Of a DNA stretch of 45,681 nt, positions 1,486 through 27,959 are shown piece by piece. Every line of letters begins with the position of its first letter. Within the stretch, counting starts at the first letter, position 1. Made by a program: the position numbers and the translations under genes. The notes under the pieces were generated by a model. That model was not told where the DNA came from, did no database searches, and saw only the letters and a list, made by a program, of their open reading frames with translations. The DNA is from an uncultured Eubacteriales bacterium (GTDB lineage Bacteria; Bacillota; Clostridia; Peptostreptococcales; Anaerovoracaceae): NCBI GenBank assembly GCA_900315555.1, contig OMZN01000138.1, positions 1 through 45,681 on the forward strand, given 5' to 3'.

Positions 1486-1490
1486 AGTTC

Positions 1491-2744
1491 TTACCTCCTC
1501 TTTGCAAACGGAAGTACGGATCCGCCATGTCCCATCACCAGAACAGAGGCATCCGCGCCCTTCTCGTCCAGCGCATCCGCAAGTGCTTCCTGTGCGCTGT
1601 GATACGGCTTGAAAAACATGCTGGCAGCAAACGAGGGTGCAAGCTCACTGACGAGATAGATATCCGCCATGCCCATCACCTTCGCGATAGCAGCTGCCTT
1701 ATGTCCCCCAAGCTGAAAATCTCTTTGAATATGCTCGATCATGTCTTCCGGCCGCTTGTGGCCAGTCATCCATCGTTCAAAATTCGCATTGCCAAGGCCT
1801 TCCTCGCAGGCACCTACCAGGATGATGATCCCGCCATCCTTGACAGCGTGCTTGGCATTATCAAGCGCCTTCTGCAGCTGATACAGATTCAGATCCTTAG
1901 GGGCACCGCCCTGGGAGACCACGACGATGTCCGCCTTTTCTTCAATTTCCACTTTGTAGAGCGTATCAAGGAAGGCGCAGCCGACCCGGTGCGCCGCCGT
2001 AACATCACCTGCCACAGCCTTGATAATTCTCTTTTCTTCATCCAGCACGACATTGAGAATGAAGTCGACACCCACCATGGCTGCCGCCTCTTCAATATCC
2101 TCCCGCACAGGATTGCCTTCAAGATGGCTCTGATACGATGCCGCATCGACCATAAACCGATGATTCATCTGGATGGCCTTCGGCGTGGACGATCCGGGCA
2201 TGATAGCCTTAGCGCCGCCGGAATAGCCCGCAAAGTAATGGTATTCGATATTGCCCAGGCAGATTCTTCTGTCAGCCTCCGCCACCGGGCGCACAATATC
2301 AACCGGCGTACCGCGCTTGGTAACACCCAGGTGCACCGTATCCTCCACATCGCCGTCAATACAGCGCACCTTCTCGAATACGGCATCGCCGACAAGACGC
2401 CGCTGTTCCGCCTCCGTGTGCGGTCTATGCGAACCCAGGGCAAATACCACCGTGATATCTTCAAGCGAAATGCCGTCCGCCTCAAGTTCCTCCAGCAGCG
2501 GCGGAAGAATCTCAAAGGAAGGGCAGGGTCTTGTGATATCACTGGTGATGACAGCGATCTTTTCCCCCGGGTGCACGATATCGCCAAGCGGTGCCGAGCC
2601 GATCGGATCAAGCAGCGCTCTCCGCACTTCCTCACTGCCCGTCAACGCCACATCCACATGGTTGGCATGCAGCTCACCCCGGAAACATTGATCCGGCACA
2701 TCGATGATCTGTGTCGTCTTTCCGTAGCCAAGTTCGACCTTCAT
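1491..2744 (-). CDS. larA: LarA-family nickel-pincer racemase/epimerase (lactate racemase-like)
   Basis: A 417-residue member of the LarA (DUF2088) family, whose founding member interconverts D- and L-lactate with a nickel pincer nucleotide. The active-site set is present: Arg72 in DITRP, His106 and His109 in GSHRPHT, His169 and Lys179 in YHYFAGYSGGAKAIMPG, and His195 in MNHRF. These align with the LarA catalytic histidines and the lysine that attaches the cofactor. Its ATG overlaps the lplA stop as ATGA, so translation is coupled. The cofactor factor LarC is encoded at 18406-19755, and larB and larE are not in the window. Many family members act on 2-hydroxy acids other than lactate, so the substrate is open. 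Placement before the malic enzyme suggests 2-hydroxyacid-to-pyruvate catabolism. Confidence 0.88.
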   Translation of the reverse strand: MKVELGYGKTTQIIDVPDQCFRGELHANHVDVALTGSEEVRRALLDPIGSAPLGDIVHPGEKIAVITSDITRPCPSFEILPPLLEELEADGISLEDITVVFALGSHRPHTEAEQRRLVGDAVFEKVRCIDGDVEDTVHLGVTKRGTPVDIVRPVAEADRRICLGNIEYHYFAGYSGGAKAIMPGSSTPKAIQMNHRFMVDAASYQSHLEGNPVREDIEEAAAMVGVDFILNVVLDEEKRIIKAVAGDVTAAHRVGCAFLDTLYKVEIEEKADIVVVSQGGAPKDLNLYQLQKALDNAKHAVKDGGIIILVGACEEGLGNANFERWMTGHKRPEDMIEHIQRDFQLGGHKAAAIAKVMGMADIYLVSELAPSFAASMFFKPYHSAQEALADALDEKGADASVLVMGHGGSVLPFAKRR

Positions 2745-3763: not shown

Positions 3764-3768
3764 GACAG

Positions 3769-5520
3769 TTAAAAATGAATGGCTCTGCCGCCGACAGCAT
3801 GCATTGCTTCGCCCATGATTTCAGAAATGCTCGGATGCGGATGCACCGTTCTTGCCACCTCGTTCACTGTCGCTTCCAGATTCATGGCCACAGCTGATTC
3901 TGCAATCATGTCTGCCGCATGCACACCATAAATGTGCACACCCAGGATCTCGCCATAGTCTGCGTCCGCAATCACTTTGACCATGCCTCTGGTGTCGCCC
4001 TCGATCTTTGCCTTTCCATTGGCCATAAGCGGGAACTTGCCGATATTGACCTTGCTGTATTTTTCTCTGGCCTGTGCCTCTGTCAGACCGACGCTGGCGA
4101 TCTCAGGATGCACATAGATAACACTGGGGATCGCATGATATTCCATCACGGTATCCCTGCCCGCCATGTTCTCCGCCGCTGTGATACCTTCCATCATCGC
4201 TGTGTGAGCAAGCATGGCCTTGCCGTTGGCATCACCGATGCAGTAAACGTCCGGCACAGAGGTTCTGAGATGGGCATCGGTGATGATGGAGCCTTTTTCC
4301 ACCTTCAGCCCCAGCGCTGCCGTATCGATACCGTCCAGCCGGGATCCGCGTCCGGTAGCCATAAGGACCTTCTCCACCGGAATCTCCTGCTCTTTGCCAT
4401 CTTTCTCGTAGCACACACTGTTCGCCGTGATCCCGGTAACCTTGGCGCCTGTAATGATCTCGATCCCGTCTTTCATCAGGTCGCTGGTGACCATCTCTGT
4501 GATCTCCTCATCAACCATAGGCAGAATCCTGTCCATATACTCCAGCACAGTGACCTTCGTGCCGGCCATAGCCAGGAACTCGGCGAACTCCATACCGATA
4601 ACACCACCACCGATGACGGCCATAGAGGCGGGCAGTTCCTCGAGCGCCAGCATTTCCGTACTGCTGAGCACATCCATCGCCGGGTCGATCTCAATGGGCA
4701 GAGGTCTGTTCTCAGACCCGGTAGCGATGACCACGTTCTGCGCCGTATAGGATTCTCCTGCAATGCGCACTTCATGGTTCTTCGCAAAGACCGCCTCGCC
4801 CGTCTTCATCTCGACACCATTGCTCTTAAGCAGACCCTTGACACCGCCGACCAACTGGTTCACCACATCGCTCTTCCTTTGCTGCACTGCCTTCATGTCC
4901 AGCTTCGCCGCCTTGACATCCGCACCGACAACGCCAAACGCGGCACCGCTCTGTACCTGCTTGAGAGCCTCTGCACTGCGAAGCAGCGCTTTTGTCGGAA
5001 TGCATCCGATATTCAGGCAGGTGCCGCCGAAGTGTTCTTTTTCGGCAATCATGACCTTCTTGCCAAGCTGTGCCGCCTGGATCGCCGCCACATAACCGCC
5101 GGGGCCGCCGCCGATGACAATGATATCGTAATCATAGGCAGCATTGTTTTCCTGCTGCGCAGCCGGCGCTGCCGCAGCACCGCCGGCATCTGCTGTGGTA
5201 CCGGCATCTTTTGGCACAGCATCCGGTGCCTTTTCGGCAATCTGCTGCAGCGCTTCTTTTTCTAAAGCGCTGATATCTTCCGCTGCCGATCCCACAATGG
5301 CAATGGGCAGCGTCACCGGCAGACTTTCCCCTTCACCGATAAACAGCCGCCTCACGACTCCATCACCGGTTGCCTCAATGTCCATATTCGTCTTGTCGGT
5401 CTCAATGGAGAACAGCGGCTCGCCCTTGGTGACGGCCTCTCCCTCCTTCTTGTACCATGCCACTAATTTCCCTTCACTCATGTTAAAGCCCAGCTTGGGC
5501 ATAATGATTAATTCAGCCAT
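3769..5520 (-). CDS. acoL: Dihydrolipoyl dehydrogenase (E3) with N-terminal lipoyl domain
   Basis: A 583-residue flavoprotein that reoxidises dihydrolipoamide with NAD. Residues 1-80 form a lipoyl domain with the modified lysine in ETDKTNM, joined by an Ala-rich linker (about 95-130) to the oxidoreductase. FAD binding is seen in IIVIGGGPGGYVAA, the redox disulfide in GGTCLNIGC, the NAD site in VIGGGVIGMEFAE, and the C-terminal His-Glu pair in HPHPSISE. An N-terminal lipoyl domain on E3 is frequent in acetoin dehydrogenase systems and in some Gram-positive pyruvate dehydrogenases. The lipoyl domain is about 80 percent identical to that of the adjacent E2 (see findings). It is the fourth gene of the operon. 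Confidence 0.95.
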   Translation of the reverse strand: MAELIIMPKLGFNMSEGKLVAWYKKEGEAVTKGEPLFSIETDKTNMDIEATGDGVVRRLFIGEGESLPVTLPIAIVGSAAEDISALEKEALQQIAEKAPDAVPKDAGTTADAGGAAAAPAAQQENNAAYDYDIIVIGGGPGGYVAAIQAAQLGKKVMIAEKEHFGGTCLNIGCIPTKALLRSAEALKQVQSGAAFGVVGADVKAAKLDMKAVQQRKSDVVNQLVGGVKGLLKSNGVEMKTGEAVFAKNHEVRIAGESYTAQNVVIATGSENRPLPIEIDPAMDVLSSTEMLALEELPASMAVIGGGVIGMEFAEFLAMAGTKVTVLEYMDRILPMVDEEITEMVTSDLMKDGIEIITGAKVTGITANSVCYEKDGKEQEIPVEKVLMATGRGSRLDGIDTAALGLKVEKGSIITDAHLRTSVPDVYCIGDANGKAMLAHTAMMEGITAAENMAGRDTVMEYHAIPSVIYVHPEIASVGLTEAQAREKYSKVNIGKFPLMANGKAKIEGDTRGMVKVIADADYGEILGVHIYGVHAADMIAESAVAMNLEATVNEVARTVHPHPSISEIMGEAMHAVGGRAIHF

Positions 5521-5574
5521 GATTTCACTCCCATTGCATCTATGTTTCAGCTCGCAGATCGAATAAAGTGCCGG

Positions 5575-6996
5575 CTATACCATCAGCACCATAGGGTTCT
5601 CCAGCTTTTCCTTCACTGCTGTGACGAACTGAGCAGCCATATAACCGTCGATCACACGATGATCAACGGTCAGCTGGATGTTCATGATCGGCTTAATCGC
5701 AATTTGCTTCTCACCCTGCTCATCCACAACGACCACCGGTTCGTCCTTGGTGGCGCTGATGGCCAGAATCGCCACCTCCGGCTGGTTGATAATCGCCGTG
5801 AAATTATCCAGCCCCGTCATCCCCAGATTCGATATCGTACAGGTGGCACCGGCATATTCATCCGGCATCAGCCTGCCTTCTCTCGCTTTCTTGACGAGTA
5901 CTGCCGACGCTTTGGAGAACTCCAGCAGACTCATGTCCTGTGCCTCTTTGACATTCGGCACGATGAGGCCGGACTTGGCGGCCACTGCGATACCCAGGTT
6001 AACGCTGGCATAGCGTTCAATATGATCCTTGCCGATTAAAGAGGCATTGACATCCGGAAATTCCTGCAGCGTCTTGACCATGGCCATGCCGATATAATCG
6101 GTGACAGAAGTCTTGTGATCCTGCACGGCATTAACTTCCTTGCGCATGGAAAGAAGCTTTTCCATGTTGACCTTCTGGTTGAAGTACAGATGCGGCGCCG
6201 TGAACTTGCTCTGCGACATCCTCTCACCGATCACCTTACGCACGCCTTCATAAGGCACCTTCTCTGCGATTCGCTTGCCATCGGGCGTGACTTCGCCGCT
6301 GCTCTTTTCTGCAGGCGCCTCTGCAGAAGCTGTCGCAGCCGCTGCTTTCGCAGCTGCCTCCACATCAGCTCTCTTGATCTTGCCGTTTTCTCCTGTGCCC
6401 TGCACATTGGCAAGATCCACGCCTTTTCCGGCGGCAACAGCCTTGGCCAGCGGCGTAACCCTTGTTTTGTTCGCTTCCAGATACTGCAGAATATCCTTCT
6501 CGCAGATGCCGCCTTCCCATCCGGTCCCGCGGATTGCAAGGCCTTCCAGCGAGAGGCCGTGTTCCTTCGCCACACGGCGTGCCCGGGGAGAAATTTTCAT
6601 TCTTCCTTCGTTGGTTACAGGCACCGGCTCTGCCGATACCGATGCAGCAGCCGGTGTGCTCTCATCAGGAGAAGCATCGTCTGCCGCCGCAGGAGAAGCC
6701 GGTGCCCTGCCGCCCAGCTTGTCCTCTGCTTCTTTAAGTACCGATGTAATATCCTCCTCTGCCGTTCCTACAATGGCGATAGGCAGGGTAACCGGCAGAC
6801 TGTCCCCTTCACCGATCAAAAGTTTTCTAACAACCGCATCCTCGGTGGCCTCAATGTCCATATTGGTTTTGTCAGTCTCAACGGAAAACAGCGACTCACC
6901 TTTTTTGACCGCATCGCCTTCCTGCTTGTACCACTGCACAAGCTTGCCCTCGCTCATGTTAAAGCCCAGCTTGGGCATTTCTATGATCTTTGCCAT
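5575..6996 (-). CDS. acoC: Dihydrolipoamide acyltransferase E2 of an acetoin/pyruvate dehydrogenase complex
   Basis: A 473-residue E2. In order it has a lipoyl domain (1-80, lysine in ETDKTNM), an Ala/Pro/Ser linker, two consecutive peripheral-subunit-binding-like segments (about 130-170, ISPRARRVAKEHG...; about 173-213, VTPLAKAVAAGKG...), another Ala-rich linker, and the acyltransferase core ending with the catalytic DHRVIDG motif. The start was placed at the ATG preceded by GGAGGAGA, because longer readings extend into the intergenic hairpin. E2 transfers the acetyl group to CoA and forms the core of the complex. Two tandem subunit-binding segments are more than the single one usual in this family. 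Confidence 0.93.
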   Translation of the reverse strand: MAKIIEMPKLGFNMSEGKLVQWYKQEGDAVKKGESLFSVETDKTNMDIEATEDAVVRKLLIGEGDSLPVTLPIAIVGTAEEDITSVLKEAEDKLGGRAPASPAAADDASPDESTPAAASVSAEPVPVTNEGRMKISPRARRVAKEHGLSLEGLAIRGTGWEGGICEKDILQYLEANKTRVTPLAKAVAAGKGVDLANVQGTGENGKIKRADVEAAAKAAAATASAEAPAEKSSGEVTPDGKRIAEKVPYEGVRKVIGERMSQSKFTAPHLYFNQKVNMEKLLSMRKEVNAVQDHKTSVTDYIGMAMVKTLQEFPDVNASLIGKDHIERYASVNLGIAVAAKSGLIVPNVKEAQDMSLLEFSKASAVLVKKAREGRLMPDEYAGATCTISNLGMTGLDNFTAIINQPEVAILAISATKDEPVVVVDEQGEKQIAIKPIMNIQLTVDHRVIDGYMAAQFVTAVKEKLENPMVLMV

Positions 6997-7023
6997 ATTC
7001 TCCTCCTTTATGACCCGGCCAGC

Positions 7024-7055
7024 TTCTGAATCTGACACACAAGTCAGATTCAGAA
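7024..7055 (-). other. Intercistronic hairpin between E1 beta and E2
   Basis: A perfect 13-bp inverted repeat (TTCTGAATCTGAC and GTCAGATTCAGAA) around the 6-nt loop ACACAA, in the 96-bp gap between E1 beta and E2. No T-tract follows on the minus strand, so it is more likely an mRNA-stabilising or processing hairpin than a terminator. A second small dyad, GCAGCAG-C-CTGCTGC, lies at 7059-7073. Confidence 0.7.
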
Positions 7056-7092
7056 ACTGCAGCAGCCTGCTGCGTGGCGCTTTTTCAATCCT

Positions 7093-8067
7093 TTATTTGA
7101 AGTACGTCTTTACTTTCTCGTAGACCTTGTCTTCCGAAGGAATCAGCGGGAACTCCAGTGCCGGGCTGAAGGGAAGCGGTACATCCGGGTTGCCGATCCG
7201 TCCAACAGGGGCATCCAGGTAGTAGAAGATATCATCTGCCACGGCTGCACCAACCTCGGCGCCGATACCGCAGCGTTCGTGGGCTTCATCCACCACCAGC
7301 AGCCTGCCGGTCTTCTTGACGGACTCGATGATCGTATCCTTGTCCAGCGGCACGATGGTTCTCAGGTCGATAACCTCACAGTCAATGCCTTCCTTGGCCA
7401 GGCGTTCTGCCGCCGCCTCACTCTTCATCACCATGGATGAAGTGGCTGCAATGGTAATGTCCTTTCCTTCTCTTGCAATCCGCGCCTTGCCGAAAGGAAT
7501 GGGTTTGATAACATCATCGACCTCAAAGGTCTTGTTGTATTCCATCTTATGTTCGAAGACGACCACCGGGTTGTCATCATAAACGGCAGTCATCAGCAGA
7601 CCGGCCGCTTCCTGTGCCGTAGACGGCACGGCAACTTTGATGCCCGGAAAATGCGCGATCATAGCCTGCATTGACTGGGAATGCTGTGCCGCAGAAGATC
7701 TTCCCGCACCGATGGGGCAGCGGATAGTCATGGGAACTTTGGCCTGCCCGCCCGACATATAGGTGATCTTAGCCATCTGGTTAATCACCTGATCGGCAGC
7801 CACCAGCAGAAAGTCGGAGAACATGACCTCCACAATGGGCCGCAGTCCCGTCAATGCCATACCGACTCCCATGCCTACAAATCCCTGCTCAGAAATCGGG
7901 GAATCCTTGACACGCATATCACCGTACTTCTCAAGAAGGCCCTCTGTGCATTTGAAGTTTCCGCCGATGAATCCTACATCCTCGCCGATGACCATGACAT
8001 TCTCATCTTCCGCCATGATTTTGTCCAACGCTTCATTAATCGCTTTTGCGTACTTGATTTTTCTCAT
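7093..8067 (-). CDS. acoB: TPP-dependent dehydrogenase E1 beta subunit (acetoin/pyruvate dehydrogenase)
   Basis: A 324-residue transketolase-type beta subunit that pairs with the alpha subunit to form the TPP-binding E1. Family features include VIGEDVGFIGG near the N-terminus, the SEQGFVGMGVGMAL helix, MPMTIRCPIGAGRSSAAQHSQS, and a C-terminal transketolase domain ending RIGNPDVPLPFSPALE. Two in-frame ATG codons lie close together. The second (8067) was chosen because GAGG lies about 7 nt ahead of it, while the first is directly against that site. It is the second gene of the operon. Acetoin and pyruvate dehydrogenase E1 subunits are hard to tell apart by eye, and the neighbouring AcoR-like regulator favours acetoin. 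Confidence 0.93.
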   Translation of the reverse strand: MRKIKYAKAINEALDKIMAEDENVMVIGEDVGFIGGNFKCTEGLLEKYGDMRVKDSPISEQGFVGMGVGMALTGLRPIVEVMFSDFLLVAADQVINQMAKITYMSGGQAKVPMTIRCPIGAGRSSAAQHSQSMQAMIAHFPGIKVAVPSTAQEAAGLLMTAVYDDNPVVVFEHKMEYNKTFEVDDVIKPIPFGKARIAREGKDITIAATSSMVMKSEAAAERLAKEGIDCEVIDLRTIVPLDKDTIIESVKKTGRLLVVDEAHERCGIGAEVGAAVADDIFYYLDAPVGRIGNPDVPLPFSPALEFPLIPSEDKVYEKVKTYFK

Positions 8068-8163
8068 TTTCATACCTCATTTTGTATCCGATTCTTGTAC
8101 CGAATCCTGATTTGAAAAGATCGTTATCTGTCTGTCCTGCGAAATGACGTTCTCTTGCTGCCA

Positions 8164-9141
8164 CTATGCGAAAATATTATTAAAGGCATCCTCTGCCGCA
8201 GGATAATCGCTTTCCTCCGCAAACTTGGCAGCGGCGGCAATATCAGCCTCGACATCCGCTTCAATCTTCTCAAACTCATCTGCGGAAGCCAGATTTTCCT
8301 CCATCATGGCAGCCTTCAAATTCTTGATAGGATCCTTCTTCATCCAGTCTTCCTTCTCCGTCTTGCTCTTACGGCTCCGATAAACGGCCGGATCGCCGAC
8401 ATGGTGTCCCTGCCATCTATAGGTCTTGGCCTCAATGATGGTGGGGCCCTCTCCGGCTCTTGCTCTGGCCACAGCTTCCTTGGCCGCCTCATACACCGCC
8501 GTCACATCCATGCCGTCCACAGTGACACCCGGAATGTTGTATCCCTTGGCACGAACGGACAGATCCGGCGTGTTGGTAACGTCACGAATATCGACGGAAA
8601 TGCCGTACAGGTTATTTTCAATCACATAGATACAGGGTAAATGCCATGCGGCTGCCATGTTGACACTCTCATGGAACGTTCCTTCATTGCTGGCACCATC
8701 TCCCAGAAAGGCGATGGAAACCTGATCTGTCTTTCTGTACTTTGCAGAATATGCCGCCCCTGTAGCAATAGGGATCTCGCCGCCGACGATGCCGTTGGCA
8801 CCGAGGATGCCTTTATCCATCGCCATAATGTGCATGGAACCGCCCTTGCCGTTGGAATATCCCGTCTTTTTCCCTAAAATCTCGGCCATCATCTTGTCCA
8901 GATCTGCACCGCGCGCAATCAGATGGCCATGTCCTCTGTGGGTGCTTCCGATATAATCTTTTTCGTTCAGGGCGCCGCATACACCGGTGGCAACTGCTTC
9001 TTCGCCCATATACAGATGGGCAAGCCCTGCCATCAGTCCGCGCTTGTAGAATTCGAATGTCTGTTCCTCAAAACGGCGAATCGTGAGCATCGTTTTGTAG
9101 AAATCCAGAAGCTGTTTCTTTTCATATCCTTTGACTACCAT
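8164..9141 (-). CDS. acoA: TPP-dependent dehydrogenase E1 alpha subunit (acetoin/pyruvate dehydrogenase)
   Basis: A 325-residue E1 alpha subunit. The thiamine diphosphate motif runs from GDGASNEG to IENN, and the STHRGHGHLIARG and KGGSMH segments are typical of the acoA/pdhA family. With the beta subunit it would decarboxylate or cleave its substrate and pass the two-carbon unit to E2-bound lipoate. The ATG has an excellent AGGAGG 6-7 nt upstream. It is the first gene after the sigma-54 promoter at 9225-9239, giving a leader of about 70 nt. The divergent sigma-54 activator and the E3 with a lipoyl domain point to acetoin dehydrogenase, but pyruvate or another 2-oxoacid is not excluded. Confidence 0.93.
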   Translation of the reverse strand: MVVKGYEKKQLLDFYKTMLTIRRFEEQTFEFYKRGLMAGLAHLYMGEEAVATGVCGALNEKDYIGSTHRGHGHLIARGADLDKMMAEILGKKTGYSNGKGGSMHIMAMDKGILGANGIVGGEIPIATGAAYSAKYRKTDQVSIAFLGDGASNEGTFHESVNMAAAWHLPCIYVIENNLYGISVDIRDVTNTPDLSVRAKGYNIPGVTVDGMDVTAVYEAAKEAVARARAGEGPTIIEAKTYRWQGHHVGDPAVYRSRKSKTEKEDWMKKDPIKNLKAAMMEENLASADEFEKIEADVEADIAAAAKFAEESDYPAAEDAFNNIFA

Positions 9142-9224
9142 CTGTAACCTCCTACGTTATGCAATGGATTTGTTGGATCAAGTGTTGCGATTGCAATATC
9201 GTTTCCGATTTGCCTTTAGAAAAA

Positions 9225-9239
9225 GCAAGACCTGTGCCA
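9225..9239 (-). promoter_or_regulatory. Sigma-54 (-24/-12) promoter of the acoABCL-lplA-larA-malic enzyme operon
   Basis: The minus strand reads TTGGCACAGGTCTTGCT. The invariant GG (9238-9237) and GC (9226-9225) are exactly 10 bp apart, and both blocks match the consensus TGGCAC-N5-TTGCW. The start site is predicted near 9213, about 70 nt before acoA. The promoter stands next to a gene for a sigma-54 activator. Confidence 0.9.
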
Positions 9240-9484: not shown

Positions 9485-11554
9485 ATGAGAAAAACCATGA
9501 CCACTTCTGAAAAAGATTACCAGCAGCAGGTTCACAAGCTTTGGGAACGCTTCATTCGGGGAGAAGAGGCCGACTACAGCCTCCTGCGTCCCGAAATTTA
9601 CGAATCATGGCAGCGATCCCGCCATGCAGACATTGACCACGAAAAGATCAGCACCAGCGTTCTTGACCCGGAAGACCTTAACATCCGTATCAATGCCAAC
9701 CTGCGCATCCTGGAAATTGTCCATCCCTATCTCGAACAAATCTACTCCGTTGTCAAGGGACAGGGCTTTTTCATCGAATACTGTGACAAGGACGGCTATA
9801 TTCTGGATCTGATCGGCGATCCCGATACACAGGAAGATATCAAGCAGCAGTCGATGCTCGTGATCGGCGCCAACCGCAAGGAATCCCTCGTGGGAACCAA
9901 TGCCATCGGAACCTGTCTGCGCCTGCAGAAGCCTATTCAAATCCGGGGCGAAGAACATTATCTGCGTCCACACAAACACTATGCCTGCTCCAGTGCACCC
10001 ATCTTTTACCAGGATGGCAGTGTGCGCGGCTGCATCAACGCCACCGGAAAAGCCGCGGATGTACACCCGCACACTCTTGGCATGATTATGTGTGCCGCCG
10101 GCGGTATCGAAAAAGAGCTGAGCATTCTGGAAAAAAACCGTGCCATCAAGCTGGTCAGTGCCCAAAGAAACAGCATCATTCAGTCCATCTCTGACGGGAT
10201 CATTCTGCTCAATCAGCGCGGCCAGGTGATCCAGATCAATGCACTGGCACTTAAGATGCTTCATATGAAATATGAAGCAATTCTCGGGAAAAATCTCTTT
10301 GACACACTTTCTTTCGACGGCAGGAAAAGCGCCGCCGATAACATGGCTCTGCTCAGCCGTTTTCCGTCCGGCAGCGAAATCGATATCACGCACCGCGGCA
10401 CAAACAGCGCACCTATGACCTTTCATCTCAGTGCAAATTCCGTTGAGGATAACGACAAGAACAACAGCGGCATGGTTCTCTGTCTCTATGAGAAGAAGAC
10501 GCTGAATCGAATGGTCAACACCATCAGCGGCTATCGTGCCAAATACACCTTCGACAGTATCATCGGACAGGCACCTGCCACAAAAAAGATGATCGACCTA
10601 TGCGTAAGAGCCGGCCGCAGCAATTCCAATATCCTGATTACAGGTGAAAGCGGCACCGGCAAGGAGCTGGTTGCGCACGCCATGCACAATGCCAGCAGCC
10701 ACCGCCGCGGGCCCTTCGTAGCCGTCAATTGTGCTGCTCTTCCTAAAAGCCTGGTAGAAAGTGAGCTTTTCGGCTATGCCAAGGGGGCCTTTACCGGGGC
10801 TTCCAAAGCAGGTAATCCCGGCAAATTCGAACTGGCCGATGGCGGCACCATCTTTCTGGATGAAATCGGCGACATGCCACTTGAGGTGCAGAGCGCCCTC
10901 CTGCGTGTTATCGAGACCAAAGAGGTAGTTCGCATCGGCAGCAAACATCCCAAACGAATCGATGTGCGCATCATCGCTGCCACCAATCGCAACCTTCCGC
11001 AAGCCGTGGAGGAAAAGCTCTTCCGAAAGGATCTTTACTACCGACTCAATGTCATGGCCATCGAAGTGCCGTCCCTCACCGAGCGAAAGGAAGATATTCC
11101 CCTGCTGGCTGATTATTTTGCAGAAACCTATTCCGGCGGCCAGCAGATCACAGTGGCGCCGGAAGTCTACGACTGTCTTTGCCGCTACCACTGGCCGGGC
11201 AACATCCGCCAGCTTGAGAATACCATGGAACGTGCCATCAACCTGACCGACGATGGATGCATCACACTGGCACAGCTGCCCGATGAAATCCGCTGCGCTG
11301 CCGGCGAACAGATACCGCCCCTCGCAAAGGAACTGACAAATCGTCCTGCCGCCGCCAAAGAAACATCATCAGAAGCGCACGCCTTTCCGGATACACGCGA
11401 TGGCATCTGCGCCGCACTGGAGGAAAGCGGAGGCAATGTGACCAAGGCGGGCACGCTGCTGGGCATGAGCAGACGAACCGTCTACCGCAGGCTCAAGGCA
11501 CTATCCATCGACTATGAAGCCTTCCGCAAAGGCGCAAATACCAGTCAGAACTAA
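9485..11554 (+). CDS. acoR: Sigma-54-dependent transcriptional activator, AcoR-like
   Basis: A 689-residue enhancer-binding protein. An N-terminal region containing a GAF-like sensor (about 70-210) is followed by a PAS domain (about 232-340, SIIQSISDGIILLNQRG), the AAA+ domain with Walker A GESGTGKE (near 386), the sigma-54 contact loop GAFTGA (near 434) and Walker B GTIFLDEIG, and a Fis-type helix-turn-helix (about 645-680). No receiver domain is present, so it senses a ligand directly rather than by phosphorylation. The start was chosen at the ATG with AAGGA 5 nt upstream. It is divergent from the aco operon and precedes a second sigma-54 promoter. Acetoin is the expected inducer by analogy with AcoR, but this is unproven. 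Confidence 0.93.
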   Translation: MRKTMTTSEKDYQQQVHKLWERFIRGEEADYSLLRPEIYESWQRSRHADIDHEKISTSVLDPEDLNIRINANLRILEIVHPYLEQIYSVVKGQGFFIEYCDKDGYILDLIGDPDTQEDIKQQSMLVIGANRKESLVGTNAIGTCLRLQKPIQIRGEEHYLRPHKHYACSSAPIFYQDGSVRGCINATGKAADVHPHTLGMIMCAAGGIEKELSILEKNRAIKLVSAQRNSIIQSISDGIILLNQRGQVIQINALALKMLHMKYEAILGKNLFDTLSFDGRKSAADNMALLSRFPSGSEIDITHRGTNSAPMTFHLSANSVEDNDKNNSGMVLCLYEKKTLNRMVNTISGYRAKYTFDSIIGQAPATKKMIDLCVRAGRSNSNILITGESGTGKELVAHAMHNASSHRRGPFVAVNCAALPKSLVESELFGYAKGAFTGASKAGNPGKFELADGGTIFLDEIGDMPLEVQSALLRVIETKEVVRIGSKHPKRIDVRIIAATNRNLPQAVEEKLFRKDLYYRLNVMAIEVPSLTERKEDIPLLADYFAETYSGGQQITVAPEVYDCLCRYHWPGNIRQLENTMERAINLTDDGCITLAQLPDEIRCAAGEQIPPLAKELTNRPAAAKETSSEAHAFPDTRDGICAALEESGGNVTKAGTLLGMSRRTVYRRLKALSIDYEAFRKGANTSQN

Positions 11555-11625: not shown

Positions 11626-11698
11626 TGACAGTGCCACCATTTGACACACTTTTTCATCGCTGGCACTGTGCCGTCTGCCTTATGGCACATACTGACAC
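11626..11698. promoter_or_regulatory. Upstream activator sites for the second sigma-54 promoter
   Basis: This noncoding stretch holds TGACAGTGCCA (11626-11636), GTGCCACCATTTGACA (11631-11646), the dyad TGGCACTGTGCC (11661-11672) and GCACAT-AC-TGACAC (11685-11698). GTGCCACC-N-TTTGACA recurs with a one-base length change at 9407-9422, and the GCACAT/TGACAC pair resembles the complement of the 9393 and 9424 repeats. The sites lie about 200-280 bp before the -24 element at 11902. Confidence 0.6.
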
Positions 11699-11730
11699 GA
11701 TTCTTCTACCGCTGCAGTGGATTTTCTCAC

Positions 11731-11900: not shown

Positions 11901-11916
11901 TGGTACAAAAATTGCT
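11901..11916 (+). promoter_or_regulatory. Sigma-54 (-24/-12) promoter of the SGNH-GAPDH-PGK operon
   Basis: The plus strand reads TTGGTACAAAAATTGCTTT. The invariant GG (11902-11903) and GC (11914-11915) are separated by exactly 10 bp, with TTGGTAC at -24 and TTGCTTT at -12. The start site is predicted near 11927, some 23 nt before the SGNH gene start with its GAGAGGAGG ribosome binding site. Related activator motifs lie upstream. Confidence 0.85.
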
Positions 11917-11949: not shown

Positions 11950-12537
11950 ATGCAGATTATCTGTCTGGGAGACAGCTTTACAGAGGGGTTCGGCGTCAGC
12001 GAAGAGGAAAACTGGGTTTCGCTGCTGGATCATAGTGGAAGCGACAGCTACATTAACAAGGGTATCAGCGGTGACACTACCTCCGGCATGCTGGCACGGC
12101 TGCATAGGGACGTCATTTCTCAGCATCCCCACGCCGCCCTGCTCATCGGCGGCAGCAACGATGTGATTGCTTCAGGAAGCATCGAAATCGTCAAGTGCAA
12201 TATGATGGCTATGATCCATCAGCTATTCCACTACGGCATCAAACCAATCCTGTCCACCCCGATTCCGTGCATTCCCGAAAAGATCATGCCCCTTTGGACT
12301 GCTTACAATGATTTTTCAACCTACAACCAGAAGATGGAAGCACTTAATTCCTGGTGCAGGCGCTTCTCCCATGCATTCATGTGCGGCTATATTGATCTTT
12401 ACACACCCTTCCAGGAAGCCATAGCGGCCGGCGGCGCAGACCGGCTGTTCCTCGACGGACTGCATCTTGTTCCCGAGGGACAGAAAATGGCAGCTCAAAG
12501 GATTGCGCAGGCGGTCCATATCGATACATACGCTTGA
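11950..12537 (+). CDS. SGNH/GDSL-family hydrolase (lysophospholipase L1/TesA-like)
   Basis: A 195-residue cytoplasmic esterase or lipase-like protein. All SGNH blocks are visible: GDSFTEG with the nucleophilic Ser near residue 9, the glycine block in GISGDTTSGM, the asparagine block GGSND, and DGLHLVPEG with the catalytic Asp and His. There is no signal peptide, so an intracellular ester or thioester is likely, but the substrate is unknown. It is the first gene after the second sigma-54 promoter, with an AGGAGG-type site, and lies 42 bp before the GAPDH gene. A hydrolase in an operon with two glycolytic enzymes suggests release of a phosphorylated or acylated three-carbon compound, which is inference only. 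Confidence 0.85.
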   Translation: MQIICLGDSFTEGFGVSEEENWVSLLDHSGSDSYINKGISGDTTSGMLARLHRDVISQHPHAALLIGGSNDVIASGSIEIVKCNMMAMIHQLFHYGIKPILSTPIPCIPEKIMPLWTAYNDFSTYNQKMEALNSWCRRFSHAFMCGYIDLYTPFQEAIAAGGADRLFLDGLHLVPEGQKMAAQRIAQAVHIDTYA

Positions 12538-12579
12538 TGAACAGCCTCGTTGCTGTAGAGTAGAAAGGAGTACATTATC

Positions 12580-13620
12580 ATGAAAAAGGTAAAAGTCGGA
12601 GTAGCAGGTTACGGTACAATCGGTCAGCGTCTTGCTGATGGCGTGGCAAAGCAGGGTGACATGGAGCTGGTCGGTATTGCCGACTTCGCACCCACCCTGG
12701 CCATCCGCGCCCTTTATGAAAAAGGCATGCCCTATGATCTCTATCTAGTGGACGGCGCTGATCAGAGCGCATTCGAAAAGCTGGGCATTCCTGTCAAGGG
12801 GAATTTTGATGCACTGCTGGATCAGGTAGATATCATGCTGGATTCCTCCCCGGCCGGTGTAGGTGCCAAAAATAAACTGCTCTATGAAAAGAAAGGCATC
12901 AAGGCTGTATTCCAGGGCGGAGAATCCAATGAGGTGGCCGATGTGTTCTTTCACGGCTATGCCAACTATGAAAAGGGCGTCGGCAGAGATTATCTGAAAC
13001 TGACCAGCTGCAACACCACCGGATTGATCCGCACCATCGACTGCCTGGATCGTGCCTACGGTGTCAAAAAGACGGCCATTACCATCATCCGGCGCGTTGC
13101 TGACCCCGGTGATTACCACAGAGGGCTGACCAATGCACTGAAGGTCGATAAAGCACCGACGCATCAGGCCGTGGATCTGATGACCATCATGCCCCATGTC
13201 GACGCCACCGGCATCCTGGTGCAGACACCGGTCACGCACGGCCACATCATCACTGTGGTCGTTACAGGAAAGAATAAAATCACCAAAGAGATGGCACTGG
13301 AAGCCTTTGAAAAGCATCCCCGTATCCGTGTAGTCAGTACCGACGACGGTTTTCTCGGCAACGCTTCCTTCTTTAAGTATGGTCGTGACTTAGGTCATGC
13401 CCGCGGTGACCTCTATGAAATCGGCCTGTGGGAAGACAGCATTGTGGAGTCAGGTGATGACCTGATGTTTGCCATTCATATCCCGCAGGAAAGCGTCACT
13501 ATTCCCGAAACAATGGATGCCGTCCGCGCCGCCTGCAAAATGCAGTTAACCCGTGAAGAAGGCACCGCTGCTACCAATCAATATCTTGGTATCGGCAAAT
13601 TCAAGACCATGTTCAAATAA
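12580..13620 (+). CDS. Archaeal-type (type II) glyceraldehyde-3-phosphate dehydrogenase
   Basis: A 346-residue protein of the archaeal-type GAPDH family rather than the usual bacterial GapA. The N-terminus VGVAGYGTIGQRLADG is a Rossmann NAD(P) site. The catalytic cysteine is Cys144 in TSCNTTGL, and archaeal features such as VFQGGE, RRVADPGDYHRG and HVDATGILVQTPVTHGH are present. It would oxidise glyceraldehyde-3-phosphate to 1,3-bisphosphoglycerate with NAD(P). It is followed 28 bp later by an archaeal-type phosphoglycerate kinase, and a sigma-54 promoter lies before the operon. A bacterial genome normally carries a class I gapA elsewhere, so this copy may be catabolic or act on a related aldehyde. 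Horizontal origin is plausible. Confidence 0.9.
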   Translation: MKKVKVGVAGYGTIGQRLADGVAKQGDMELVGIADFAPTLAIRALYEKGMPYDLYLVDGADQSAFEKLGIPVKGNFDALLDQVDIMLDSSPAGVGAKNKLLYEKKGIKAVFQGGESNEVADVFFHGYANYEKGVGRDYLKLTSCNTTGLIRTIDCLDRAYGVKKTAITIIRRVADPGDYHRGLTNALKVDKAPTHQAVDLMTIMPHVDATGILVQTPVTHGHIITVVVTGKNKITKEMALEAFEKHPRIRVVSTDDGFLGNASFFKYGRDLGHARGDLYEIGLWEDSIVESGDDLMFAIHIPQESVTIPETMDAVRAACKMQLTREEGTAATNQYLGIGKFKTMFK

Positions 13621-13648
13621 ATTTATTAGAACAGAAAAAGGAGATCTT

Positions 13649-14893
13649 ATGAAATTTGGGATTCATACCTTGGATGACTTCGATGTTCGCCATAAGACCG
13701 TGCTCTGCCGGATTGACATCAACCAGCCCGTCGACCGGGAAACCGGCACATTGAAGAGCACGGCCAGAATCGAAGCCTGCGTGCCAACCATCCGTGAGCT
13801 TTCTGACAAGGGCGCCCGCGTGGTTCTTATGGCCCACCAGGGAAGCGATATCGAATACAAGAACTATTACACCACCCGCCCCCATGCCGCAGTTCTGACT
13901 GCACTCCTGCAGCGGCCGGTCCGCTTCATCGAAGATGTCTGCGGTCCTTATGCACAGGAACAAATCAAATCTCTGCGGGATGGGGAGATCCTCCTTTTGG
14001 ATAACGTCAGATTTCTGGCAGAGGAGCAAACTCTGTTCGAACGCAGCCTGCATCTTTCTCATGATGAGCAGGCAAAGACGCTGCTGGTGCAAAAACTCGC
14101 GCCGCTGGGTGATCTCTACGTATGCGATGCCTTTGCCGCAGCGCACAGAGACCAGCCTTCACTCGCCGGTTTTGAGCAGCTTCTTCCCAGTGCAATGGGA
14201 CGTCTTTTCGAAAAGGAATACTGCATTCTTTCCGAGATGATGGAATCGCCCAAACACCCCTGCGTTTTCCTGCTTGGAGGTGCCAAGGTGGCGGATGCCT
14301 TTCTGATGATGGACAGCGTCCTTGAAAAAAATATCGCAGATAAAATCCTGACCGGCGGCCTCGTAGCAAATATTCTCCTCTTTGCCCGCGGTACGGACAT
14401 CGGAGAAGCCAGCCGCAATATTATTCACAAAGCCGGACTGGACGAGTTCATTCAAACCGGCAGAGAGCTTCTGAACAAGTACAGTGAACGCATTGTCCTG
14501 CCCGAGGATCTGGCCTGTGTCCTTGAAGGTATGCGCCGGGAGGCACCCGTCGATGCCTTCCCCAAAGAGGCACCCGCCATCGACATCGGTGCATCTGCCG
14601 CAGCGCACTATGCGCAGCAGATTCAACAGGCGGCCACCGTCTTTGTCAACGGCCCGATGGGCATCTTCGAAGAAGCGCCATCCGAGGCCGGGACCCGTAC
14701 AGTCTGGCATGCCCTCGGTACGACACAGGCTTTCACCGTAGTCGGCGGCGGCGACAGCATCACCGCCTCCGCTAAATACGGCATCACTGAAAAGGTCTCC
14801 TATATCTGTACCGGCGGCGGCTCACTGATTCGTTTCCTCAGCGGCAGGGAACTCCCTGTCGTGCGCGCGCTGCGGGAAGGTGCGGCACGCTAG
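13649..14893 (+). CDS. pgk: Phosphoglycerate kinase, archaeal-type branch
   Basis: A 414-residue phosphoglycerate kinase that makes ATP from 1,3-bisphosphoglycerate. The substrate-binding start CRIDINQPVD, the AHQGSDIEYKNYYTT segment, LLDNVRF, LGGAKVAD, VNGPMGIFE and the C-terminal GGGDS nucleotide site are all seen. The wording of several motifs (DIN-PVD with TG following, HQGSDIEY, VNGPMG instead of the usual WNGPMG) places it with archaeal-type enzymes. The start is an ATG preceded by AAAAAGGAGA. It completes a GAPDH-PGK pair in the sigma-54 operon. No clear intrinsic terminator follows in the 65 bp before the convergent methyltransferase gene. Confidence 0.9.
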   Translation: MKFGIHTLDDFDVRHKTVLCRIDINQPVDRETGTLKSTARIEACVPTIRELSDKGARVVLMAHQGSDIEYKNYYTTRPHAAVLTALLQRPVRFIEDVCGPYAQEQIKSLRDGEILLLDNVRFLAEEQTLFERSLHLSHDEQAKTLLVQKLAPLGDLYVCDAFAAAHRDQPSLAGFEQLLPSAMGRLFEKEYCILSEMMESPKHPCVFLLGGAKVADAFLMMDSVLEKNIADKILTGGLVANILLFARGTDIGEASRNIIHKAGLDEFIQTGRELLNKYSERIVLPEDLACVLEGMRREAPVDAFPKEAPAIDIGASAAAHYAQQIQQAATVFVNGPMGIFEEAPSEAGTRTVWHALGTTQAFTVVGGGDSITASAKYGITEKVSYICTGGGSLIRFLSGRELPVVRALREGAAR

Positions 14894-14958: not shown

Positions 14959-15897
14959 CTAGCGTTCGGATTTAAGGAGAAGCGCGGTACCGTGCAGATC
15001 GGGCAGAGGCAGCACAAAGGTTCCGCTGGCGCTGCAGAATTCCCTGACAGCGCGTCCTACTCCCGGAAACTGCATGCTGTTGTAATCGTGAATGAGAATG
15101 GCACCGCCCGGACTCATCCGCGGATAGAAAAAAGCCAGTCCGCTCTTCGTAGGGGCATAGAGGTCAGGATCCAGGCTTACCAGCGCAAAATGCATTTCAC
15201 AGATGGAGGGCATCTGCTCCAGACTTTCCGGGAAGCGTCCCTTGACGAAAACAGCCTGCTGCGGATGCGGCAGGCTGTTTCTTACACAATTCTCATCCGT
15301 ATCGGAAAAATCCGCCTGCCGGCCTGCTCCAACGACGGGTATCCTGCCGCCATCGGCTGTTTTTTCTTCGATTGCCAGATCATCCGCATCAAAGCCTGCA
15401 AAGGTATCGAACAAGTACAGTTTCCTAGCAGGAAGAACCCGGTTGATCTCCGCAGCGAAAGCGCCCTGATATACGCCCAGCTCCGCCAGCGCACCCGGCA
15501 CATGCCGCCTTTTGATTTCTTCTGCATACAAACGTAAAGCAGCCAGTCTGAGATCCTGTCTGTCACGAAACCAGCCTGCCGGCACAACCGCACCGGCGAA
15601 TCCGTCATCGCGCAGCTGCCGTATCAACTCACTTTCCGCTTCTTTGTTCAGCACGGCAATATAGACTTCCTCCGGTGCAAGATCCAGCGCCTCCTTTATG
15701 GAAACTACCGGATAGCCCATGCACTGCGTGCCCTGTTTTCTCTTGCTGCTGTCCACATAACAGAGCATCTCACAATCGTGCGGAAGCCACTGCAGCATCA
15801 TGGCACCGGCCTGACCGGCACCCCAAATGATCACCCTTTTCCGGGCTGCAGAGCCTCTCTCTGCCGCTGTCTCCATGGTTTTTGTATCCTTCTTCAT
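14959..15897 (-). CDS. TylF/MycF-like O-methyltransferase with N-terminal Rossmann domain
   Basis: A 312-residue protein with two parts. Residues about 20-100 (RVIIWGAGQAGAMMLQWL...CYVDSSKRKQG) form a short Rossmann segment like those in nucleotide-sugar or cell-surface biosynthesis proteins. Residues about 135-310 resemble the TylF family of S-adenosylmethionine- and Mg-dependent sugar O-methyltransferases (LAELGVYQGAFAAEINRVL, LYLFDTFAGFD, ALVSLDPDLYAPT, GGAILIHDYNS). The substrate is unknown; a surface glycan or a secondary metabolite sugar is reasonable. Its ATG overlaps the stop of the 86-residue gene upstream (ATGA), so the two are translationally coupled. Confidence 0.78.
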   Translation of the reverse strand: MKKDTKTMETAAERGSAARKRVIIWGAGQAGAMMLQWLPHDCEMLCYVDSSKRKQGTQCMGYPVVSIKEALDLAPEEVYIAVLNKEAESELIRQLRDDGFAGAVVPAGWFRDRQDLRLAALRLYAEEIKRRHVPGALAELGVYQGAFAAEINRVLPARKLYLFDTFAGFDADDLAIEEKTADGGRIPVVGAGRQADFSDTDENCVRNSLPHPQQAVFVKGRFPESLEQMPSICEMHFALVSLDPDLYAPTKSGLAFFYPRMSPGGAILIHDYNSMQFPGVGRAVREFCSASGTFVLPLPDLHGTALLLKSER

Positions 15898-18405: not shown

Positions 18406-19755
18406 TCACTCCATGCCGGAAAGAATTCTCCGATACGCTTCTTCAAAGACGATGCCCGCCTGCTCTGCAGCAGCCCGCACGCTTTCATATTCCGGATAGG
18501 CCCGCTCTGTGCCGCCGGGCAGACGGCAGACTTTAAAGAGAATCTCCCCCAGCGGCGTTTCTCTTGCCTCTTCCCGACGCGCCAGCACAGTACGCTGCTC
18601 GCTGCGTCTGCGCACGCCGATGGTGGTTGTACATGCAAAGAGAATGCGCTCCATCTCCGCTGTCTGCGGCGGTGTGCAAAGAACGGTCAGCTTCACCGCC
18701 GGCCGGTTTTTCTTCATATAAATCGGCGTGAAAAACACATCCCTGGCACCCGCCGCAAGCAGCGTCTCCATAGCGCTGCCCAGCATCTCCCCGGTGCCGT
18801 CATCAATATTGGTTTCAAGACAGACTACCTGGTCTTCTGTTTCCCGCTTCTCTTCATCCAGCGAAATCAGCATCACGCGCAAAATACTGGCCACGGCATA
18901 CTCCCGTTTGCCGGCACCCATGCCGATTTTCTCCACACAATAGGAAGCCGGCAAGGCAGCATCGGTTCGAAGCGCCGCCGCAGCCGCCGCACCGGTAGGT
19001 GTTACAAATTCGCCGTCGACACCCAGAGGCCGCATGGGAATCTGATACCGCTCGACAATATTGGCCACGGCAGGCACCGGCACCGGCAGGATGCCGTGCT
19101 GACAGCGTACGGTACCGCTTCCCTCACTGAGAGAAGGCACAAAGGCCCTCCTTATGCCGAGATCATCGATGCATACTGCAATAGCGACGATATCGACAAT
19201 GGAATCCACCGCACCGACCTCATGAAAGTGAACCTCTTCACGGGGGACACCGTGAGCCTTTGCCTCGGCCTCTGCCAGAATATCGAACATCTTCTTTGCA
19301 AGCGACCGTGCTCCGTCGGTCAGAGCGGCGCCCTCAAGGATCGCCGTCACCTCCCGCAGGCCGCGGTGCACATGCCCGTAATGGTGCTCGTGATCGTGAT
19401 CATGCTCATGGCTTTGATGGTGCTCGTGATCATGATCGTGTTCATGGCTGTGATGATGTTCATGCGCCTGGCCGGCGTGTTCGGCCGCTGCATGCAGATC
19501 CGCCCCGGGGCTTCGTTCGCCATGCAGATAGGCCATATCGTGATCGTGATTTTCTTCCCGGAGAATCACATGAAAATCGCAGCAGGCCAGACCAGCTTTC
19601 TTCACTTGTGAAATTTCAATCTCATATCCATCCAGCGGAAGAGAATCCAGCACCTTGACAAGCTTTTCCCGATCGGCGCCAAGATCCAGCAGCGCTGCCA
19701 CCAGCATGTCGCCGGCGATACCCGCAGCCGCTTCGATATACAATGCTTTGCCCAT
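18406..19755 (-). CDS. larC: LarC, nickel chelatase for the nickel-pincer cofactor
   Basis: A 449-residue LarC (formerly DUF111). It inserts nickel into the pyridinium bis-thiocarboxylate nucleotide used by LarA enzymes. Seen are the N-terminal [53 protein letters not shown], the TPTGAA segment, and a CTP-binding-like C-terminal half. Residues about 60-130 form a His-rich nickel-binding loop with a 12-residue tandem repeat. The ATG has AGGAG 8 nt upstream and lies 11 bp after rsmE. In Lactiplantibacillus LarC is made from two frames by ribosomal frameshifting, whereas here it is one uninterrupted frame. It supports a functional LarA at 1491-2744. Confidence 0.93.
19381..19452 (-). repeat. 36-bp tandem repeat encoding the His-rich loop of LarC
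   Basis: Two adjacent 36-bp units (19381-19416 and 19417-19452) match at 32 of 36 positions and encode 12-residue units rich in His, Asp and Glu. The third-base differences keep the protein repeat intact. Slippage could change the number of metal-binding units. Confidence 0.85.
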
Positions 19756-19766
19756 GATGGTTTCTC

Positions 19767-20504
19767 CTATTGCATTTCCAGCTCGTACATGCACATGGCC
19801 GCCGCCACGGGACCCGCCGTCTCCGTGCGCAGGATGGTTTTGCCAAGGGATACACTGATCCCGCCGGAGAAAAGAATGTGCCCGGCCTCTTCATCAGAAA
19901 AACCGCCCTCCGGACCGACGATGATGGCGATCCGCTTCGGCTTTTCCTTCAGTCCGCGCAGGCACTGTTTGATGGTGCGCTTTTCCTCGTTTTCATAGGG
20001 GAAAAGGATCAGATCGTAGGTATCCGCCAGCGTTGAAAAATCATCGGGATAGATGGGCTCCGTCACCACCGGGACGATGCCCCTGCGGCATTGTTTAGCT
20101 GCTTCCCGGGCAATGGTATTATAACGGATGATCTTTTTGCCGTATTTACCGTTATCCGCCACCACACTGCGCATCATAAATACGGGGACGATCTGCACGA
20201 CGCCCAATTCGGTACACTTCTGCACCACCTGCTCCATTCTGTCCCCTTTGGGAACGCCCTGATAGAGCGTAATCTCTAAGGAAGGTTCCCTGGCAAACCG
20301 CTGTTTGTCTTCAATGACAGCTTCCACCGCATCCTCTTCCACAGAGACAATCCGGCATCGATATTCCCAGCTGCTGGAATCGGAAACCTCGATGACATCA
20401 CCGGGGCGAAGCCGCAGAACCTTTCGAATATGTCTGACATCTTCGCCATCGATCAGGATGCTCTTACCAACAACCTGAGAGGCGTCCACAAAAAACCTAT
20501 GCAT
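19767..20504 (-). CDS. rsmE: 16S rRNA (uracil-1498-N3)-methyltransferase
   Basis: A 245-residue SPOUT-family methyltransferase that methylates U1498 of 16S rRNA using S-adenosylmethionine. An N-terminal PUA-like domain (HHIRKVLRLRPGD-type segment near residues 24-38) precedes the knotted domain. The knot motifs IVGPEGGFSDEEA and LGKTILRTETAGP are intact. It overlaps the end of prmA by 8 bp, and prmA-rsmE is a common pair in Bacillota. larC follows after 11 bp. Confidence 0.96.
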   Translation of the reverse strand: MHRFFVDASQVVGKSILIDGEDVRHIRKVLRLRPGDVIEVSDSSSWEYRCRIVSVEEDAVEAVIEDKQRFAREPSLEITLYQGVPKGDRMEQVVQKCTELGVVQIVPVFMMRSVVADNGKYGKKIIRYNTIAREAAKQCRRGIVPVVTEPIYPDDFSTLADTYDLILFPYENEEKRTIKQCLRGLKEKPKRIAIIVGPEGGFSDEEAGHILFSGGISVSLGKTILRTETAGPVAAAMCMYELEMQ

Positions 20505-22482: not shown

Positions 22483-23538
22483 TTAGCGCTGCCGTTCAAC
22501 GGGCAGATCAGCCGCTTCGCTAAGCTCGTCAAGCAGCGCCTGGGCATCGTCCCACTGGCGAATCAGCGCAGGCACCACATCATATAAATCGCCCACGATA
22601 CCATAATCCGCCGTCTCAAAGATAGGGGCCGAGGGATCCTCGTTGATGGCCACGATCACATCAGCATCCTCCATGCCCGCCGTAAACTGCAGCGAACCGG
22701 ATACACCGCATGCGATGAACAGCTTCGGCCGCACCGTGACGCCGGTCTGCCCGATCTGCATGCTTTTCGGCACCCAACCGGCATCCACGGCGGCACGGGT
22801 GGCAGCCACAACGCCGCCGGCCTTTTCCGCCAGCTGCTTCAGCAGATCAAAGCCGTCTGCTTCTCCCAGTCCCCGGCCGCCGCAGACGATGACATCTGCC
22901 TGCGCCAGACCGGTATCTGCACCGGCATCTTCGATGGTCTCCGCCACTTCCGTCCCGATCGCTGTCTCATCGATAACAGGCGTCAGGCAGAGGACTTCCC
23001 CTTCTGCCTGATGATCAGCCTCTGCAGGACGCATCACCCCCGGGCGGACCGTCACCATCTGCGGGCGTTTCGTCTCGCAGACAATGGTAGCCATCATATT
23101 CTCACCAAACGCCGGCTTCGTCGCATAAAGCAGTCCATCATGCACCCGGAGCCGGGCAGCATCTGCCGTCAGGCCGGTACCCAGTTCGACCGCAGCCCGC
23201 GGGGCAAGATCCATCCCGCGAAAAGTGGCTCCAAAGAGCACAATCTCCGGATCGATCTGCCGCAGCGCCTGCACAGTGGCACGCGCATAGCCTTCGCTGC
23301 TGTAGGAAGCAAGCGCCGGATGCTCTGCAAGGCAGACCCTGTCTGCTCCCAGGGCAAAGCAGGCCTTGGCATGCTGCGCCACGGCACTGCCGCAAAGAAG
23401 AACCGTCACATCCTGTCCGTCAGCCGCCAGACCACAGGCCGCAGCCACCAGCTCTCTTGTGACCTCAACAGGCCCCTCCTGATCATATTCTGCCACGATA
23501 ACGATATCGCCCGGCTTATCTTTCTTTTCCTTCTCCAT
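22483..23538 (-). CDS. etfA: Electron transfer flavoprotein alpha subunit (copy 1)
   Basis: A 351-residue EtfA. The N-terminal half is the ETF fold shared with EtfB, and the C-terminal half carries the FAD-binding segment [26 protein letters not shown] and [20 protein letters not shown]. With EtfB it shuttles electrons to or from acyl-CoA dehydrogenases. An ATG with GGAG 6 nt upstream was chosen; a GTG four codons earlier overlaps the etfB stop but lacks a site. It follows etfB1 and the acyl-CoA dehydrogenase in one operon. Whether this pair performs electron bifurcation with ferredoxin cannot be judged by eye. Confidence 0.95.
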
Positions 23539-23549
23539 TTCCTTCTCCA

Positions 23550-24347: not shown

Positions 24348-24363
24348 TTTTTCTCCCCTTATC

Positions 24364-25927: not shown

Positions 25928-25947
25928 CGGTACCTCCTCTCGTTTAT

Positions 25948-25978
25948 AGACGGCATCCCCAAAGCAGGAATGCCGTCT
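25948..25978 (-). other. Hairpin between etfA2 and the thioesterase gene
   Basis: A 9-bp stem (AGACGGCAT with ATGCCGTCT) and a 13-nt loop, placed just before the thioesterase ribosome binding site. No T-tract follows on the minus strand. It may set the ratio of upstream to downstream messages by processing or partial termination. Confidence 0.55.
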
Positions 25979-26002
25979 TTCCGTCTTTCACTATACTGCA
26001 GG

Positions 26003-27028: not shown

Positions 27029-27050
27029 GGTATATTTTCCTGCCTTCCCG

Positions 27051-27848: not shown

Positions 27849-27918
27849 AAGTCTCCTTTCCTTCTCTCCGCAGAGGACGCAGAGACGAAGAATACGATCC
27901 AGTAGCTTTTGTCTTTTT

Positions 27919-27927: not shown

Positions 27928-27959
27928 TAAGTCGGCATAAGGAAAAAAGTTATATTTTC

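Follow-up and report, generated by a model that had tools for sequence, protein, structure and literature searches.

In the lower glycolysis of archaea and bacteria, glyceraldehyde-3-phosphate dehydrogenase (GAPDH) and phosphoglycerate kinase (PGK) act one after the other and ATP is gained from an acyl phosphate. The same two protein families, with the same reaction order, are encoded side by side in contig OMZN01000138.1 (here C13) from the 1.8 Mb genome of an uncultured Eubacteriales bacterium of the Anaerovoracaceae (assembly GCA_900315555.1). The whole contig of 45,681 nucleotides was analysed and is called the window below. The pair, a type II (archaeal-type) GAPDH (GAPDH-II) and an archaeal-branch PGK, shares its locus with a malate racemase and a malic enzyme. 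From sequence comparison and gene neighbourhood we consider it probable that this pair yields the ATP in a carboxylate counterpart of lower glycolysis. It would convert malic semialdehyde, derived from a sugar or from inositol, into D-malate, which would reach pyruvate through the racemase and the malic enzyme. The module differs from lower glycolysis by these two partners, by a predicted substrate bearing a carboxylate in place of the phosphate, and by a PGK without the arginine that binds the 3-phosphate.

Other described systems resemble parts of this module. Inositol is a product of dietary phytate, and in its degradation IolC phosphorylates 5-dehydro-2-deoxy-D-gluconate. Relatives of the module reach this compound by IolG/E/D/B, like the classic myo-inositol pathway of Bacillus and Anaerostipes (IolG/E/D/B/C/J/A; PMC8355322), but they lack IolC. 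The transketolase cleavage predicted for them would spare the ATP of the kinase, gain one more ATP, and yield D-malate and a sugar phosphate carrying the C2 unit where the classic pathway gives malonic semialdehyde and dihydroxyacetone phosphate (DHAP). The genome of the window differs from these relatives in having the classic route as well. Aerobic carnitine breakdown, whose oxidation of malic semialdehyde yields specifically D-malate (PMC11353897), followed by pyruvate, shares this intermediate and product; it differs by an oxygenase start, a non-phosphorylating aldehyde dehydrogenase, absence of ATP gain at this step, and a D-malate dehydrogenase. In Thermoanaerobacterium the LarAH6 (Mar2 family) enzyme racemises malate efficiently, with a KM of 0.38 mM; its cellular role was left open (PMC7583248). 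The racemase of the window belongs to the same family, above its curated cut-off. The acetoin dehydrogenase operon with AcoR shares E1/E2/E3 genes and a sigma-54 activator with the window, where the E1/E2/E3 operon runs on into the racemase and malic enzyme genes and a second sigma-54 operon holds GAPDH-II and PGK. The features of the window that concern the module are the following.

310 to 1485, minus strand: malic enzyme (PF00390/PF03949; partial NF009501 match, 420 bits), sharing 76% identity with its counterpart in a related module locus (L040)
1491 to 2744, minus strand: nickel-pincer malate racemase of the LarAH6/Mar2 family (NF052593, 560 bits; cut-off 500)
2741 to 3763, minus strand: lipoate-protein ligase LplA (TIGR00545, 388 bits; cut-off 280)
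3769 to 5520, minus strand: E3 dihydrolipoyl dehydrogenase with an N-terminal lipoyl domain (TIGR01350, 538 bits; cut-off 409; PF00364)
5575 to 7038, minus strand: E2 acyltransferase with lipoyl, E3-binding and catalytic domains (PF00198, PF02817, PF00364)
7093 to 8073, minus strand: E1 beta, a thiamine-diphosphate enzyme (NF006667, 380 bits; cut-off 321)
8164 to 9141, minus strand: E1 alpha of the acetoin-dehydrogenase type (TIGR03182, 396 bits)
9224 to 9239, minus strand: sigma-54 -24/-12 promoter TGGCACAGGTCTTGCT of the E1-alpha operon, exact strict match
9485 to 11554, plus strand: AcoR/DhaR-like sigma-54 enhancer-binding activator, GAF-PAS-AAA+-Fis, with a GAFTGA motif (PF00158, 235 bits; PF01590, PF02954)
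11642 to 11700, no strand assigned: possible activator sites, TGACACA at 11642 and a palindrome TGTGCC-N11-GGCACA at 11667-11689 (sequence and repeat scan)
11901 to 11916, plus strand: sigma-54 -24/-12 promoter TGGTACAAAAATTGCT of the SGNH-GAPDH-PGK operon, exact strict match 33 bp 5' of the SGNH start
11950 to 12537, plus strand: SGNH/GDSL hydrolase (PF13472, 78 bits)
12580 to 13620, plus strand: type II (archaeal-type) GAPDH (NF003251, 401 bits, cut-off 185; TIGR01546, 302 bits, cut-off 233)
13649 to 14893, plus strand: archaeal-branch PGK (PF00162, 381 bits)
18406 to 19794, minus strand: LarC, nickel-pincer cofactor synthesis (TIGR00299, 192 bits; NF052512, 151 bits)

Profile searches place the hydrolase, GAPDH-II and PGK in tandem on the plus strand with small gaps. 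On the opposite strand the genes from E1 alpha to the malic enzyme form one tight run from 9141 to 310; the contig end lies just past the malic enzyme and the operon may continue. The gene of the activator, whose start was set by eye at the ATG behind AAGGACAG, sits between the two divergent operons and their promoters. A scan of the 45.7 kb for the strict sigma-54 consensus TGGYAC-N5-TTGCW gave exactly two matches against 0.10 expected, one ahead of each operon; a looser scan permitting two mismatches was uninformative (114 matches, 92 expected). Since the activator lies between the halves and a strict motif precedes each, the two look like one regulated unit. The sigma-54 control proposed in the initial annotation is thus borne out by the -24/-12 promoters and the enhancer-binding activator. 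Copies of TGTGTCA are also found at 9424 and 9447 and these repeats, with the palindrome, are suggestive of putative activator sites.

We infer the substrates, the direction of the reactions and a ketol-cleaving role of the complex. The activator encoded between the halves would switch on both. A thiamine enzyme would split an alpha-ketol R-CO-CHOH-CHOH-CH2-COO- and free D-malic semialdehyde (OHC-CHOH-CH2-COO-), an analogue of D-glyceraldehyde-3-phosphate (GAP) in which CH2-COO- replaces CH2-OPO3. Most relatives would use a split transketolase for this step, and their ketol would be 5-dehydro-2-deoxy-D-gluconate, which IolG/E/D/B form from inositol; viewed from the opposite end, this compound would correspond to D-xylulose-5-phosphate with CH2-COO- for CH2-OPO3 and the same 3,4-configuration. 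In the window, the acetoin-dehydrogenase-type complex would perform the cleavage onto CoA, giving also an acyl-CoA. The window GAPDH is predicted to be a phosphorylating D-malic semialdehyde dehydrogenase forming malyl-1-phosphate, and the PGK a D-malate kinase running towards ATP by transfer of this phosphate to ADP. Malic enzymes use L-malate; since the Fischer projection gives D-malate, a racemase would be needed before the malic enzyme could release pyruvate and CO2, and the nickel malate racemase is predicted to fill this role.

The archaeal type of both enzymes, recognised in the initial annotation, is confirmed. The nearest solved relative of the GAPDH is that of M. fervidus (1CF2). The PGK scores 304 bits with P. 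horikoshii 2CUN and 218 bits with the best bacterial PGK, and in a tree with one archaeal row on a long branch it groups with Pyrococcus 2CUN, apart from class I PGKs. Contig C43 of the genome carries adjacent gap and pgk genes, both of the ordinary class I type, and contig C69 encodes another class I GAPDH. The archaeal-type pair is therefore not the genome's glycolytic set; that reading, which the initial annotation had named as a refuting case, was rejected. In the PGK family the residues equivalent to Asp23, Asn25, Arg38, His62, Arg121, His169, Arg170 (yeast-style numbering) and the first Lys of GGAKVSDK are invariant in all 87 module members. The Arg of the SHLGRP motif is a ligand of the 3-phosphate of 3-phosphoglycerate (3PG). 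Its equivalent, Arg65, is lost in 87/87 module PGKs (Ser in 69, the window PGK among them, Asp in 17, Gly in one) and is present in the three class I PGKs aligned. In 96 aligned module GAPDHs the catalytic Cys (SCNTTG) and the His aligning with M. fervidus His219 are retained throughout, and 24 columns are fixed, uniformly or nearly so, unlike in four archaeal enzymes; the active-site changes include HH to HQ and TLMH to THGH.

Relatives were sought in 84,980 species and neighbouring genes typed by tblastn. The scan found the GAPDH, at 75-83% identity, in 80 loci from Clostridia, Anaerolineae and one spirochaete. The module PGK is found in 75 of them, within 300 bp and on the same strand in 72 of these, and the loci also encode a LarA-family racemase (63/80), a split transketolase (56/80), a malic enzyme (39/80) and IolD (37/80), the linked inositol genes being IolG/E/D/B. 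Longer genome stretches around the loci show the same clusters. Across some 95 related loci the module GAPDH is accompanied by this PGK and, for the most part, by the racemase, malic enzyme, split transketolase and IolG/E/D/B. E1/E2/E3 genes take the place of the transketolase in six loci, Acetobacterium among these, and the two never occur together (56 versus 6; p 4e-4), which is what one would expect of two alternative sources of one aldehyde. GAPDH-II is present in 16 of 391 genomes of the class, and 14 of these 16 also have the LarAH6 malate racemase, found in 44 genomes overall (hypergeometric p 7e-13, related genomes counted as independent), mostly less than 10 kb away. Among the LarAH6 loci without GAPDH-II, whose stretches are too short for good typing, one lies beside E1/E2 genes (L135) and one beside the end of a module PGK gene (L144). 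The initial annotation had seen a three-gene module. Its GAPDH/PGK pair is conserved and the divergent half at 310-9141 had been missed. None of the 80 related loci contains a counterpart of the SGNH hydrolase; it is a window-specific passenger outside the conserved module, and its suggested role in releasing the substrate was rejected as a part of that module.

Among genomes with IolD, IolC is found in 1/12 of those with GAPDH-II and in 11/16 of those without (p 0.002), and IolC above cut-off was not found in 47 of 48 named module genomes. Given this absence, the module seems to replace the IolC/IolJ steps in the relatives that lack IolC. The one among these 12 that has IolC is the genome of the window (0/11 for the others), which keeps a classic cluster of IolE, IolC, IolD, IolB, a class II aldolase and a regulator on another contig (L119:12025-19744, contig C106); the window module therefore probably serves another ketol. 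Four genomes (G037, G065, G082, G093) have IolD but neither IolC nor GAPDH-II above cut-offs; these may run the inositol pathway in a third way.

The window E1 alpha shares about 50% identity with its counterpart in an acetoin dehydrogenase operon on a plasmid, a cluster of a sigma-54 regulator, lpdA, E1, E2 and 2,3-butanediol dehydrogenase. Its score against 1w85, the Gram-positive pyruvate dehydrogenase, is low. The window has both the E1/E2/E3 genes and the AcoR-type sigma-54 activator of acetoin dehydrogenase systems; the operon partners argue for a ketol other than acetoin as substrate of the complex. The extra genes of two complex-type loci hint at sugar acids: L101 encodes a polyol-type zinc dehydrogenase along with a transaldolase-like protein, and in Acetobacterium bakii the module is preceded, at L111:2-3244, by genes for molybdenum-hydroxylase subunits, for a hydrolase of the metallo-beta-lactamase fold and for a protein like 3-hydroxyacyl-CoA dehydrogenase. 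The racemase at 1491..2744 is the only NF052593 match in the genome, which holds all the cofactor genes larB, larC and larE, with LarB and LarE encoded on contig C107. LarC, which the racemase needs for its cofactor, bears a His-rich stretch and lies about 16 kb from this single LarAH6-model match.

Several points weigh against the carboxylate pathway or its extension to the window. Inositol is unlikely to be the substrate of the window module, given the classic iolC-D-B-aldolase cluster in the same genome, and no source of a ketol was found beside the module. The co-occurrence statistics are weakened by the non-independence of related genomes. The Arg65 position is Lys in 2CUN, the one archaeal PGK compared, so ancestry may account for part of the loss. 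At the second Lys of GGAKVSDK the module PGKs have Ala (one Thr), and 2CUN lacks the Lys as well, with Ser in its place. The differences in the GAPDH pocket could be drift of the clade. Taken together, the residue changes of both enzymes fit a carboxylate substrate but also a separate ancestry.

The pair might instead be a conditional duplicate of lower glycolysis, acting on true GAP and 3PG and induced when sugar or inositol yields triose phosphate. The known members of both families act on these compounds and an iPGM gene is also present in 20/80 loci, but class I gap and pgk already exist in the genome, the inositol-linked module genomes lack the IolC needed to obtain DHAP from inositol that way, and neither the universal loss of the phosphate-binding Arg nor the presence of racemase and malic enzyme is explained; we regard this as unlikely. 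Archaeal GAPDH-II and PGK often serve gluconeogenesis, and co-regulation with an acetoin-dehydrogenase-type complex would suit a pair that, like GapB of Bacillus, works backwards from 3PG during growth on acetoin, lactate or malate and is governed by the acetoin-type sigma-54 activator. This reading gives no reason for the malate racemase, for the Arg loss in PGK, or for the inositol genes, split transketolase and missing IolC of the relatives, and appears very improbable.

A variant compatible with the core of the carboxylate pathway retains the same chemistry for GAPDH, PGK, racemase and malic enzyme but takes E1/E2/E3 as a plain pyruvate dehydrogenase burning the pyruvate formed, the aldehyde coming from an enzyme encoded elsewhere. 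Generic models do label these genes pyruvate dehydrogenase and the malic enzyme provides pyruvate. The likeness of E1 alpha to an acetoin dehydrogenase cluster with its own sigma-54 regulator, its weak resemblance to 1w85, the position of the complex in place of transketolase, and locus L101, where complex and racemase are present and malic enzyme was not found, speak against this variant, to which we give a minor chance.

For the carboxylate pathway as a whole, we lean towards a natural substrate-level phosphorylation through malyl-1-phosphate, in which an archaeal-type GAPDH/PGK couple would have been adapted to D-malic semialdehyde. In many Clostridia of gut and rumen a transketolase would supply this aldehyde by cleaving a product of inositol, which would amount to an inositol pathway free of IolC; in the window and in Acetobacterium the supplier would be a ketol-cleaving complex resembling acetoin dehydrogenase. 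The initial annotation had suggested a conditional substrate-level phosphorylation branch apart from glycolysis, with a GAP analogue as one option, and both ideas gain support. Its aldehyde phosphate does not: the Arg that binds the 3-phosphate has been lost from the PGK family, and the partner genes speak for a carboxylate, malic semialdehyde. Such a pathway would be a second, non-glycolytic ATP-making use of the GAPDH-PGK couple. It would provide LarAH6 malate racemases with a physiological role, the question left by PMC7583248, and explain inositol use by many rumen and gut Clostridia with IolD and without IolC. Annotation pipelines call the module genes glycolysis. Literature searches linking inositol to malate racemase, malate semialdehyde to transketolase, or lactate racemase to PGK gave no result, and no such pathway was met in the literature searched, which covered few subscription journals or preprints, so that novelty is provisional. 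The acyl phosphate, malyl phosphate, is mentioned there only in engineered E. coli. That compound is reportedly the other regio-isomer.

Many rumen Clostridia (L060-L112, e.g. L072:2284-7000) have four consecutive HAD-like genes and an iPGM gene ahead of the inositol/GAPDH-II cluster; the HAD-like row possibly dephosphorylates inositol phosphates. In the window, a TylF-like methyltransferase with an N-terminal NeuD-like stretch (14959-15897) is convergent with PGK, and a relative with 44-47% identity also flanks the Acetobacterium modules L096, L097 and L111. Further along, two separate pairs of electron-transfer flavoprotein alpha and beta genes (22483-27938) surround an acyl-CoA dehydrogenase gene (24364-25497).

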